Assembly: GCA_021413735.1 (NCBI GenBank)
Contig: JAIOPV010000012.1
Location: forward strand, 18,811-82,810
Direction of reading: 5' to 3'
Length of the DNA stretch: 64,000 bases
From: Planctomycetota bacterium
GTDB taxonomy: Bacteria > Planctomycetota > Planctomycetia > Gemmatales > Gemmataceae
The notes beneath the pieces were generated by a model. It had not been told where the DNA came from. It searched no databases and saw nothing but the letters and a program-made list of their open reading frames with translations. Position 1 is the stretch's first letter, and each line of letters opens with the position of its first letter. The translations under genes and the position numbers were made by a program. Of the stretch, positions 25,988 to 47,327 are shown one piece after another.

Positions 25988-27304
25988 ATGACCCTTCCTT
26001 CGGACCCCCGGGATCACGCACTTGCCACCTGGTGGGCGGGTGTCGATGCCGTTCGCCCCGAACCCCTCGTTCAAACTGCGATCGCAGCGAGCGAGGCGAT
26101 CCGTTCCGCGCGTCGAGTGCTGGTCGTTGGAGCCGGGAAAGCTGGGCCAGGAATGGCCGTCGGGCTTGAAGCCGCGCTCGCGGGTCAACTCGATCGCGTT
26201 GAGGGATTGGTGAATGTGCCAGCAGGGATGACCGCACCGCTGAAACGCATCCGTTTGCACGCGGCCCGACCGCAGGGCGTGAACGAACCAACCGCTGAAG
26301 GAGTCGCGGGTGCGGAAGAGATGCTGCGATTGCTCGCCTCAGCCGGTCCGGATGATGTAGCTGTGTGTCTGCTTTCTGGGGGCGGTTCCGCTCTGCTTCC
26401 GGCACCGGCCGAAGGCGTCACGCTCGCCGACAAACTCGCGGTCACGAAACTCCTGCACCGCTCCGGGGCGACCATCGACGAGATGAATTGCGTTCGCAAG
26501 CATCTTTCCCGCGTGAAGGGCGGTCGGTTGGCGGAGGCGTTTCGCGGCAAGCTCCTTGCTTCGCTCATCATCTCCGATGTCGTTGGTGATCCGCTCGACG
26601 TAATCGCGTCTGGGCCAACGTCCCCCGACCCCACGACATTCGCCGAGGCTCGTGCCGTGTTGGAGCGGTATGGGCTGCTGGGTACTTCACCGGTCGCGGT
26701 TGTGCGGCATCTCGAACGCGGCGGTGCGGGAGACATTTCCGAGACGCCGAAGACAGTTCCCGCGAATGTGATGAACCGCGTCATTGGAAGCAATCGCGTG
26801 GCGCTCGACGCGGTACGACGCAAGGCCGAGGCGCTTGGGTATCGCGTTCTCAATCTGGGCGCGTTCGTCGAAGGTGAAACGCGGCAGGTCGCTACAGCGA
26901 TTGCTGGAGTTGTGCGAAGTATCAGGCAGGATGACGTTCCGGTTGCTGCCCCCGCATGCATCCTCGTCGGCGGGGAAACAACGGTTACCCTTGGCGAGAA
27001 CCCGGGGAAGGGAGGGCGGAATCAGGAGTTCGTTCTGGCAATGCTCACGAAACTCGGCCGATTGGGTCTGGACGGCGTGACCATTCTCAGCGGCGGCACC
27101 GATGGCGAGGATGGCCCGACCGACGCTGCCGGTGCGATCGCCGATGGGAACACCGCGTCCGTTCTGTGCGAACAGGGTATCTCAGCCGAGGATTTCCTGC
27201 GTCGGCACAACGCTTACGAGTTGTTCGCCCGTTGCGATGGGCTTCTGAGGACTGGCCTCACAGGAACGAACGTCATGGATGTGCGAGTGATCCTGATTCG
27301 CTGA
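25988..27304 (+). CDS. Glycerate 2-kinase (GckA/MOFRL type)
   Basis: 438 aa, typical length. N-terminal glycerate kinase domain: VLVVGAGKAGPGMA, VCLLSGGGSALLPAP, NCVRKHLSRVKGGRLAE and LIISDVVGDPLDVIASGPTSPD. C-terminal MOFRL domain: LVGGETTVTLGENPGKGGRN, ILSGGTDGEDGPTDAAGA and LTGTNVMDVRVILI. The enzyme phosphorylates D-glycerate to 2-phosphoglycerate. It could work with the hydroxyacid dehydrogenase at 18319 but the genes are not adjacent. Downstream is a long non-coding region. Confidence 0.95.
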   Translation: MTLPSDPRDHALATWWAGVDAVRPEPLVQTAIAASEAIRSARRVLVVGAGKAGPGMAVGLEAALAGQLDRVEGLVNVPAGMTAPLKRIRLHAARPQGVNEPTAEGVAGAEEMLRLLASAGPDDVAVCLLSGGGSALLPAPAEGVTLADKLAVTKLLHRSGATIDEMNCVRKHLSRVKGGRLAEAFRGKLLASLIISDVVGDPLDVIASGPTSPDPTTFAEARAVLERYGLLGTSPVAVVRHLERGGAGDISETPKTVPANVMNRVIGSNRVALDAVRRKAEALGYRVLNLGAFVEGETRQVATAIAGVVRSIRQDDVPVAAPACILVGGETTVTLGENPGKGGRNQEFVLAMLTKLGRLGLDGVTILSGGTDGEDGPTDAAGAIADGNTASVLCEQGISAEDFLRRHNAYELFARCDGLLRTGLTGTNVMDVRVILIR

Positions 27305-27405
27305 GTGTGAAGTTTTTTCATCTTTCGGCAGGGTTGGTTGTAAAAGCTACCTGTCGGGAGAGTACTTCATGCCCAATTTTTCCTATTGACGGGAAATGGC
27401 GTCCT

Positions 27406-27427
27406 GCTGGGTCGGTGTCCGACCAGC
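27406..27427. promoter_or_regulatory. Dyad upstream of sigma-54 promoter
   Basis: GGTCGG and CCGACC arms around TGT, extended outward by GCTG/AGC. Its centre is about 60 bp before the predicted start site, so it could be an enhancer-protein site for the sigma-54 promoter, or a terminator-like hairpin for the glycerate kinase transcript. Confidence 0.35.
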
Positions 27428-27445
27428 GTGGCAGCAAAACGACCT

Positions 27446-27463
27446 CTGGCACGGCTGTTGCTA
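27446..27463 (+). promoter_or_regulatory. Consensus sigma-54 (RpoN) promoter
   Basis: CTGGCACGGCTGTTGCTA matches every position of the published YTGGCACG-N4-TTGCW consensus, with the GG and GC dinucleotides correctly 12 bases apart. Predicted transcription start is about 27473. No ORF starts close behind it; the next gene begins 490 bp later, which is why a non-coding RNA or long leader is suspected. Confidence 0.7.
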
Positions 27464-27472
27464 TATCTTGTT

Positions 27473-27640
27473 TCGTTCTCAACCGGTGCTGAAGTGAGAA
27501 GTCACAGGGGCCGGATGGAGAAGAGGCACGGTGCGGACCGGAACCCGCACCGAGGGCCGGTCGGCAGCGAGTGAATCGGGAAGAGGTGCGGATGAACCGT
27601 GCCCAACCGATAAACTTGTCGCCGACCGGTCTTTGTCATT
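27473..27640 (+). ncRNA. Candidate structured RNA from the sigma-54 promoter
   Basis: Helices can be drawn as a hairpin GGTGCGG/CCGCACC (27530-27551), an enclosing pairing GGCACGG (27525) with CCGTGCC (27597), and GCCGGTCGGC (27556) with GCCGACCGGT (27621). The last two cross each other, so they form either a pseudoknot or alternative folds; the final helix is followed by CTTTGTCATTTCTG, a weak terminator tail. It does not match RNase P, tmRNA, SRP or 6S RNA cores. A 19-codon ORF starting at 27515 is also possible. Inference only. Confidence 0.33.
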
Positions 27641-27657
27641 TCTGTAGCCTTCAGCGA

Positions 27658-27728
27658 CCCAGCCTGCTGATGCAGGCGGTTCGCCGGAAATCCCGGTGTT
27701 GTCGAACCACCTGCGTCAGCAGGCTGGG
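27658..27728. repeat. 26-bp inverted repeat
   Basis: Arms 27658-27683 and 27703-27728 begin CCCAGCCTGCTGA and pair at all 26 positions if two G-T pairs are allowed, with a 19-base loop. Size and form resemble the other gene-end palindromes of this window; it may end the upstream RNA. Confidence 0.8.
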
Positions 27729-27963
27729 TTGTTGAACAAGGCAACCCGCCTTACCAAACACGCACCCGCCGCGCCCGGGATTTTTTCGTCGCGGCAATCT
27801 CGTATTGACCCGCTACGGCATGTCGGTATGTTCCGCCCTCCAAACAAGAAACTCAGACGCGGCCATCAGGCAACCGATTCGGGGGAATCGCTGCCGGTAT
27901 CCGCAATCGCCGTTCCTGCGTCTGCCATCTCGGCGACTCAGGAGGGTAGAGAAAGGGATCGCC

Positions 27964-29961
27964 ATGAACCGGGCGTGGATCGCAGCGGCCGGGCTGAACC
28001 GGCGAAAATTCCTGGCCTTGTCTGCCGCCGTTGGGCTGGCTGGACTCGGCAGCGGATGCAAAGGGCCGGAAGCCGAGAAGCTGAAGGAAGCGCAGGGGCG
28101 GTCGCAGATCGGCGAGGATCCGGCGGACCTCGACGCCGCCACGACCATCGGCAGCAAGACCACCATCGGCAACACCGAATCCATCGTCGTGAGCGGTGTC
28201 GGTTTGGTGTACGGCTTGCCTGGAACCGGGAGCAGTGCTCCGCCCGGCGGCTGGCGCATGATGCTTGAGGAGAGCCTCAAGCGAATGCCGAATATGTCGA
28301 ACATCAAGCAGATGCTCGATGACCCGGGCAAAACGACATCTCTCGTTCTGGTATCGGCGTTGGTTCTGCCGGGGGCACGCAAGGGCGACCTCATCGACGT
28401 GCAGATTTCGCTGCCCGATGAGAGCAAGACGACGAGCCTCAAGGGCGGCAAACTGCTGCTGTGCGAACTGCACAACACCGACACCACCGGCAACTTGAAG
28501 TCGTTGGTTCAGGAAGGCAAGACGGCCGCTCCCAGCGGGGAACTCCGCAAGGGCGATCGTTGGGCCATCGCGGAAGGTCCGGTTCTCGCGGGTCAGTTCA
28601 TTCCTGGAAACGGGAAGGGCACCGTCGAGACGGATGCCGACGGTCAACCGCTGTTCAAGGTCGGCAAGATCTGGGGTGGTGGGAAGGTCACGAAGGCCCG
28701 TCAGTATTTCATCCTGATTAACTCGGGTAGCCAAAGCCCGCAGATGGCGGCTTCGCTCGCGGAACGGCTCAACAGCACATTCCACGCGACCTCCGAGCCG
28801 AACCTCAAAGTGGCCGACGCCAAGGATCGCCAGTTGATCCTGTTGAACGTGCCGATGGCGTATCGCAACAACCACTACCGGTTCTTACTCGTCGCGCGAC
28901 AAGTGCCTGTCCTCCCGGCGAACAACGACAGCCTTTATCGCAAGAAACTGGAGGAAGAACTGCTCGAACCGTCCACGGCTCTCGTCGCGGCGGTCAAGCT
29001 CGAAGCGTTGGGTTCGTCGAGCATGCGGGCGTTGCGTGTCGGGTTGGAAAGCCCGTCGCCGTGGGTTCGCTTCGCGGCAGGGGAAGCGCTGACGTACCTC
29101 GGTCAGACCGATGGTGCGGTGGAACTCGCGAAGTTGGCCGAAGACCATCCTGCTCTTCGCGCTCCGGCTCTGAAGGCACTCGCCTCGATGGACGATGCGG
29201 CCTGCACCGATCGCCTCGTGGAACTGACCGCGAACAACGATCCGACGCTTCGTTATGGTGCGTTCCTCGCGCTACGAATGGCGGACGAGAACAACGCCGT
29301 GGCTCGCGGAATGCTCGTGAACAACTCGTTCTGGCTGCACCAACTCGCACCGAGCAGTTCGTCCATGATTCACCTGACGACGGATCACCGTTGCGAGGTG
29401 GTACTGTTCGGCGATGCTCCGAAACTTCGCGGACCGTTCACGCTGCCGGTGGGAACTGAGTTCACGGTGAGCGTGTCGGCCAGCGGAAACGAGGCGACGG
29501 TCACTCGCATCGTGAAGGTGAAGCACGATCTGGAGGATAAGAAGCTGACTTGCAAGCCGACGCTGGCGGATGTGCTTGTGAAGATTGGTCAGCTTGGCGG
29601 CACCTACTCGGAAGCGGTTGAGTTGATCCGTCGTGCGGATCGTGGTCAGGTGTTGTCGGCAGCGGTGGTGATCGACGCAGTTCCGGCTGAGTTGAACATT
29701 CGGCAGCTCGCGAGTTTCGCACGAAACGATCCGACGCTGACCCGTGCGAATGTCGAGATTGCTCGGGCGGGTGTGGTTCGACCAGACCTCGATGTGTCTG
29801 GTTTCGATCTGCCGGCGACGACCAGCGACACGGCTCCTGCGGTTGTTGCGACGCCACCGCGTCCGCCGTTGAACCGTGAGCCTGGCCGCATCTTTGGCTC
29901 GAAGCGTCATGAAGCGCCTGCGATTGATCCTGGCGTGGTGCCCGCGACTGGAGATCAGTAG
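27964..29961 (+). CDS. FlgI-like domain plus HEAT repeats, exported lipoprotein
   Basis: About 665 aa from ATG 27964. The N-terminus combines twin-arginine features (LNRRKFLALSAAVGLAG) with a lipobox-like GLGSGC. Residues 60-330 resemble FlgI, the flagellar P-ring protein: VVSGVGLVYGLPGTGS, LVSALVLPGARKGDLIDVQI and TTSLKGGKLLLCEL. A HEAT-repeat region follows (GLESPSPWVRFAAGEALTYL, APALKALASMDDAACTDRL), then a C-terminal domain and a Pro-rich tail. No flagellar gene is nearby, so this looks like a FlgI fold reused as an envelope ring or scaffold. The sigma-54 promoter 490 bp upstream may drive it through a long leader. Confidence 0.8.
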   Translation: MNRAWIAAAGLNRRKFLALSAAVGLAGLGSGCKGPEAEKLKEAQGRSQIGEDPADLDAATTIGSKTTIGNTESIVVSGVGLVYGLPGTGSSAPPGGWRMMLEESLKRMPNMSNIKQMLDDPGKTTSLVLVSALVLPGARKGDLIDVQISLPDESKTTSLKGGKLLLCELHNTDTTGNLKSLVQEGKTAAPSGELRKGDRWAIAEGPVLAGQFIPGNGKGTVETDADGQPLFKVGKIWGGGKVTKARQYFILINSGSQSPQMAASLAERLNSTFHATSEPNLKVADAKDRQLILLNVPMAYRNNHYRFLLVARQVPVLPANNDSLYRKKLEEELLEPSTALVAAVKLEALGSSSMRALRVGLESPSPWVRFAAGEALTYLGQTDGAVELAKLAEDHPALRAPALKALASMDDAACTDRLVELTANNDPTLRYGAFLALRMADENNAVARGMLVNNSFWLHQLAPSSSSMIHLTTDHRCEVVLFGDAPKLRGPFTLPVGTEFTVSVSASGNEATVTRIVKVKHDLEDKKLTCKPTLADVLVKIGQLGGTYSEAVELIRRADRGQVLSAAVVIDAVPAELNIRQLASFARNDPTLTRANVEIARAGVVRPDLDVSGFDLPATTSDTAPAVVATPPRPPLNREPGRIFGSKRHEAPAIDPGVVPATGDQ

Positions 29962-47079: not shown

Positions 47080-47107
47080 ATTGCCAGGTGAGGGTAAAGT
47101 GATAAGG
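47080..47107 (+). promoter_or_regulatory. Candidate promoter of the cobalamin-riboswitch transcript
   Basis: TTGCCA at 47080-47085 and TAAGGT at 47102-47107 with a 16-base spacer, placing transcription start near 47114, immediately at the riboswitch. Confidence 0.4.
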
Positions 47108-47111
47108 TAAT

Positions 47112-47290
47112 GCCCGACGGGTGTTCGCGTGGTGATTCCGCCACATGAACCGAAGAGGGAAGCCGGTGAGAATCCGGCGCAGGGCCGCTGCTGTGTTCGG
47201 TCAGAGTCCGGGCAAAACGCCACTGCGGGAAACCGTGGGAAGGCCGCTCGACTCGTAAAGAACCGAGAGTCAGAAGACCTGCCCGTCGCA
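47112..47290 (+). ncRNA. Cobalamin riboswitch
   Basis: The conserved core reads in order GAGGGAAGCCGGTGAGAATC, CCGGCGCAGGGCCGCTGCTG, GCCACTGCGGGAAACCGTGG, GGAAGGC and the B12 box AGAGTCAGAAGACCTGCC. These match the class-defining stretches GGGAA-CCGGTG-A-TCCGG, GCCACTG...TGGGAAGGC and GAGCCAGGAGACCTGCC. A helix GTTC/GAAC enclosing GTGG/CCAC precedes the core. The first gene downstream is a DUF1559 protein at 47468, then an SGNH hydrolase, neither a known cobalamin gene. It should lower expression when cobalamin binds; this is the usual mode, not shown here. Confidence 0.93.
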
Positions 47291-47293
47291 TTC

Positions 47294-47327
47294 CGCGGCA
47301 TCTGAGTGAATGAAAACTCGGATGTCG
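47294..47327 (+). promoter_or_regulatory. Hairpin after riboswitch, possible expression platform
   Basis: Thirteen-bp stem (two G-T pairs) with an 8-base loop, four bases after the B12 box. No T-run follows, so an anti-terminator/terminator switch is not obvious; it might instead control RNA access for Rho or translation. Confidence 0.5.

Follow-up and report, generated by a model that had tools for sequence, protein, structure and literature searches.

The window analysed in this study is a stretch of 64,000 nucleotides (G000:C162:18811-82810) from a 9.8-Mb draft genome, and the features considered here lie on its plus strand. A gene at 25988-27304 encodes a glycerate kinase with DUF4147 and MOFRL domains, as assigned by Pfam. 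It is followed by a palindromic box of the TTGTA-N5-TACAA type, TGTAAAAGCTAC (27339-27350), a further box, TTTTTCCTATTGAC (27377-27390), a sigma-54-type promoter (27447-27462), and a predicted structured small RNA (27473-27634). The start of the RNA was placed 12 nt after the C of the -12 element, i.e., at 27473, and its end falls inside a T-rich stretch (27630-27642), which gives a size of approximately 160 nt. The only ORFs that cover this RNA in the window are short, overlap one another, and have no evident meaning. A FlgI-like ORF that starts at TTG 27805 or ATG 27964 lies 0.3 to 0.5 kb downstream on the same strand and has its own sigma-70-like site (27805-27832). The product of 27964-29961 consists of a FlgI-like domain followed by HEAT repeats, with an N-terminus that appears lipoprotein- or Tat-like by eye (NRRKFL...GLGSGC), and it is possibly something other than a flagellar P-ring protein. 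Between the RNA and this gene is a near-perfect palindrome with arms of approximately 38 bp (27650-27736), which lies outside the RNA. The palindrome is a dispersed, REP/MITE-like repeat, with approximately 10 further loci in this genome and many in G002, G003, and G004.

The string CTGGCACGGCTGTTGCT is located at 27446-27462 of the window, and its bases 27447-27462, TGGCACGGCTGTTGCT, form a canonical sigma-54 -24/-12 site identical to TGGCACG-N4-TTGCT. Taken in isolation, this match is at chance level and unremarkable: the window contains 10 sigma-54-like sites with up to two mismatches (10.8 expected), and the exact pattern TGGCAC-N5-TTGCW occurs 16 times in the whole genome, compared with 25 times for the reversed control pattern. 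The verdict on the promoter therefore had to rest on relatives. A GG-N10-GC site is found 41 to 84 bp ahead of the RNA core in all 33 members of the family described below, although the covariance models for the RNA were built without the promoter on purpose. The site takes the form T/C-GGCACG-N4-TTGC, in which GG, A, and GC are invariant and the N4 spacer varies freely. The best site scores 11 to 14 in the members, and a score of 11 is reached by 1.0% of control stretches from the same loci. We took the promoter as real on the basis of its conservation at the 33 homologous loci; an earlier note on this DNA, which had described the site as an exact sigma-54 consensus and proposed a comparative alignment with covariation analysis in Gemmataceae, was right about the promoter, and the alignment revealed covariation in two hairpins as well (P3 and P4; see below). 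One rpoN gene is present in each of the 20 genomes searched, and matches to Sigma54_activat are numerous in each genome, with 29 in that of the window.

A DNA search of 59 related genomes found positions 27336-27642 retained in two genomes of the same genus (82% and 76% identity) and partly conserved in several more. A covariance model of the RNA part only (R1) detected a single copy in almost all genomes of the genus, as well as copies in other genera of the family, and a second model (R2), run over 398 genomes of the class, gave matches in 35 genomes. When each match was judged together with its flanks, credible copies remained in 32 genomes, all of them Gemmataceae, in nine genera and with a single copy each; none was found outside Gemmataceae in the 398 genomes. 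Within the genus, the RNA is present in 18 of 19 genomes, and the nineteenth genome is 68% complete. Scanning GTDB species genomes for an exact pattern identified carriers that include Gemmata sp. IIL30 and Limnoglobus roseus PX52, together with the contig L084. The 33 members used throughout are the 32 Gemmataceae genomes and L084, which is a weak member with neither an upstream box nor a fold excess. Matches in G348, G070, and G092 were set aside. The model matches L079, L080, and L122 (G348), as well as the pattern matches L089 (Paracoccus) and L100 (Billgrantia), have no promoter and were taken as chance. L125 and L126 (G070 and G092) were not counted, since they comprise only GAAGAGGC and a terminator with a CCGGAACC loop, with no sigma-54 site. 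In these two other genera of Gemmataceae (L125, approximately 1501-1560; L126, minus strand, approximately 1501-1604), GAAGAGGC followed by the CCGGAACC-loop hairpin serves as the terminator of a trypsin/PDZ-like gene, an arrangement that reflects either coincidence or a second use of this module.

The RNA has no match above the gathering threshold in Rfam 15. At E values up to 5, the low-E matches are microRNA precursors, and these fall on the palindrome at 27650-27736. No match to the RNA was found in plasmids. The literature search, with partial coverage of subscription papers and motif lists, returned no paper on a sigma-54 small RNA in Planctomycetota, and the RNA may have been described earlier without a name. 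The earlier statement that this RNA is undescribed is thus borne out as far as tested. By these tests, the RNA is a putative new family of a known kind, the sigma-54-driven sRNAs, to which GlmY, Qrr, and CrcZ belong.

The folds of most members share a common plan of P1, a linker, P3, and P4. P1 (27476-27522) is a stem-loop of UUCUC..CCGG paired with CCGG..GAGAA that encloses a small inner hairpin, and its 3' side carries the conserved GGGGCYGG; the variants CCAG/CUGG and CCGG/CUGG in relatives still pair. The linker GAAGAGGCA (27520-27528), which has the form GAAGAGGC in nearly all members, is near-invariant and partly single-stranded and is a candidate pairing or protein-binding site. P3 (27529-27552) is a hairpin of 8 bp in the window copy with the loop CCGGAA at 27538-27543. 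The loop is near-invariant, and each of pair positions 3 to 8 takes four to six standard pair types over the 33 members. P4 (27553-27633) is a long terminator-like stem, formed between 27553-27565 and 27621-27633, with an optional internal module (hairpin 27585-27603). Its strands are GCCGGTCGGC/GCCGACCGGT in the window copy and covary in relatives; in many members the stem is CCGGUCGG/CCGACCGG, followed by a T-rich stretch, and the internal module is present or absent. The T-run after P4 in many relatives is terminator-like, and a terminator scan of the window copy found no consensus terminator, the T stretch being interrupted (TCTTTGTCATTT).

Among the class-ii members (n = 13), 95.5% of the cells are paired, and 16 pairs are changed on both sides. 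Sliding the partners against each other reduced pairing to 34 to 48%, and the covariation score of 0.384 in these members (0.189 in shuffles) was reached by none of 500 shuffles. The folding energies of the members are below those of shuffles (median z = -4.4). In the window, 27472-27740 has a minimum free energy of -163 kcal/mol (z = -11.3), part of which is due to the separate palindrome; the RNA alone has a z of -6.7. From this comparison of sequences, the 160-nt stretch is almost certainly a conserved structured RNA. The earlier note had also drawn helices that cross each other. Its GCCGGTCGGC/GCCGACCGGT helix and the hairpin after GGCA are those that covary, whereas the crossing helix GGCACGG/CCGTGCC, which can be drawn in the window because one arm of P3 resembles one arm of the inner hairpin, is without support. 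The copy in G013 has GGCACGG unchanged but can no longer form the crossing helix, and its inner hairpin GGUGCGG/CCGUGCC loses one base per side and stays fully paired; in the class-ii members, the crossing strand is absent. The suggested pseudoknot was therefore discarded.

The palindromic box is 108 bp ahead of the promoter and is likely the site of an activator, i.e., an enhancer-binding protein. A TGTAA-N4-TAC box, mostly TTGTAAAAGCTACA or TTGTAATTCCTACA and palindromic, is located 66 to 112 bp ahead of the promoter in 32 of the 33 members and in 0.9% of control stretches, a contrast that is flattering since the pattern was picked after the loci had been inspected. When 20 genomes were searched for this box and a sigma-54 site at the right spacing, the combination was found at the RNA locus in 12 genomes and at other promoters only as two unrelated lone matches (L105 and L115). 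This spacing is the layout of an activator site, and the box is likely an enhancer that appears to be exclusive to the RNA locus. The locus thus has the predicted anatomy of an enhancer-activated sigma-54 promoter, at which binding of the activator is presumed. The TTTTTCCTATTGAC box, between the activator site and the promoter, occurs approximately 62 to 74 bp ahead of the promoter in 19 of the 33 homologues, which comprise most members of the genus and two others; it may bind a second regulator or a bending protein.

The activator was sought by ortholog sharing, and of several groups of enhancer-binding proteins common to the RNA-bearing genomes tested, none was singled out. An FHA-GAF-AAA+ group (L243 in G025, L249 in G004, L264 in G017, and L274 in G099) is common to four RNA-bearing genomes and has no close match in G087, which lacks the RNA; in G025, the gene lies 9 kb from the RNA. 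We regard this group as a candidate activator, a lead and no more. The nitrogen or stress regulation suggested in the earlier note may apply to the activator of this promoter.

The glycerate kinase gene is the usual upstream neighbor of the RNA and is found on the same strand at 27 of the 33 loci. Downstream genes differ among the loci, and in many members of the genus the next gene is convergent, with a product that, reading the sequence by eye, we take to resemble neutral ceramidases. The RNA appears to be a unit of its own that accompanies the kinase gene, probably through simple inheritance. The synteny also suits a sigma-54 transcript that acts in cis, e.g., by shaping the 3' end of the glycerate kinase mRNA or altering its stability. 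However, the RNA is kept at six loci that have no kinase in the flank examined, the gap between kinase and RNA is 0.3 to 0.7 kb at several loci, the complement of the linker is not found on the plus strand of 16 loci, and the gene order may simply be inherited; action in cis is accordingly improbable. Less probable still is the leader proposed in the earlier note, which had offered a small RNA or a structured leader of the FlgI-like gene as options. A long, riboswitch-like 5' leader fits the window, where that gene follows on the same strand, but no FlgI-like homologue was found near the RNA at 15 other loci, and in many relatives the next gene is convergent; in the window, the dispersed palindrome lies between the RNA and the gene, and a sigma-70-like site is present at 27805. 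What holds of that proposal is a non-coding structured RNA, with the small-RNA option.

A conserved stretch of this kind could also be a gene for a small protein or a DNA element of which the structure is a by-product. Nothing specific favors either; the variation tracks base pairing and not codons, length changes do not come in threes, and the members have no evident start codon or frame in common, so we give this reading very little credence. A sponge for the CsrA protein that resembles CsrB/RsmZ, with GGA motifs in loops, was attractive, as these genomes encode CsrA and no Hfq was found in them, and the CCGGAA hexaloop of P3 contains GGA in all members. On the other hand, the GGA count is close to that of shuffles (164 and 158.8, respectively), and A-N-GGA is depleted over the 33 members, with 10 occurrences against 29.9 expected and higher counts in 100 of 100 shuffles. 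The single conserved loop GGA has C in place of A two positions ahead, and a sponge thus seems a poor explanation. The RNA is similar to CsrB/RsmZ in the presence of CsrA in its host genomes and of GGA in one conserved loop, and it differs from them in that repeated A-N-GGA motifs are absent.

We consider it probable that the locus encodes a stand-alone, trans-acting regulatory sRNA of approximately 160 nt expressed from an enhancer-activated sigma-54 promoter, in which transcription, dependence on the activator, action in trans, and a partner are what we infer from the conserved architecture. An enhancer-binding protein on the TTGTA-N5-TACAA box approximately 110 bp upstream would loop onto sigma-54 RNA polymerase at 27447-27462 and, in response to its own signal, would fire transcription at approximately 27473, which would stop downstream of P4. 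Once folded, the RNA would act in trans by offering the linker GAAGAGGC, beside the rigid P3 hairpin with its CCGGAA loop, to one partner. If the mode of action is pairing, the targets would be mRNAs with GCCUCUUC-like sites. The complement of the linker, GCCTCTTC, was not found on the plus strand in the 16 loci searched, possibly owing to codon bias. Of the two modes, mRNA pairing that needs no Hfq is about as likely as recognition by a dedicated RNA-binding protein. Some of the conservation may stem from a function at the DNA level.

Hfq was found in none of the 20 genomes searched, including that of the window, with control genomes positive, and an Hfq-type sRNA is therefore unlikely. Each of these genomes has two to six copies of CsrA, and the window's genome and its 19 relatives thus show an unusual balance of RNA-binding regulators. 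A bolder and rather doubtful version of the trans-acting sRNA would have a dedicated enhancer-binding protein of Gemmataceae with this RNA as its single output, and an RNA that acts free of Hfq through a new RNA-protein module composed of the GAAGAGGC linker and the CCGGAA hexaloop hairpin. If true, this would be a post-transcriptional system with its own RNA-binding protein in Planctomycetota.

The Qrr RNAs work with Hfq, and CrcZ sequesters Hfq/Crc. The Gemmataceae RNA differs from the former in being single copy, with no match in Rfam and no Hfq found, and from CrcZ/CrcY in that Hfq was not found in the 20 genomes searched. Qrr sRNAs are the output of the sigma-54 activator LuxO in Vibrio (PMC10162802), and the Gemmataceae RNA would likewise be the output of a sigma-54 activator. 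CrcZ and CrcY are sigma-54-linked regulatory sRNAs of Pseudomonas and Azotobacter (PMC6292655); the predicted sigma-54 link is shared, and titration of a protein is one possible mode for the Gemmataceae RNA. GlmY/GlmZ of enterobacteria are sRNAs with a sigma-54 promoter preceded by activator sites, the activator being QseF/GlrR (PMC6075780, PMC7073468). The Gemmataceae RNA resembles them as a structured stand-alone sRNA with a sigma-54 promoter and predicted upstream activator sites, whereas it has no Rfam similarity to them, comes from genomes in which no Hfq was found, and belongs to another phylum. The Rhodopirellula-1 motif was listed as a candidate structured RNA in Planctomycetes and Proteobacteria (PMC2864571); the present RNA differs from it in distribution, with no credible copy outside Gemmataceae among the 398 genomes of the class.

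The RNA family is ready for databases and offers an entry point to post-transcriptional gene regulation in Gemmata-type bacteria, which apparently lack Hfq, as well as a handle on the signal sensed by at least one of the many enhancer-binding proteins in these bacteria. The window also contains a cobalamin riboswitch at 47102-47300 (103.5 bits).
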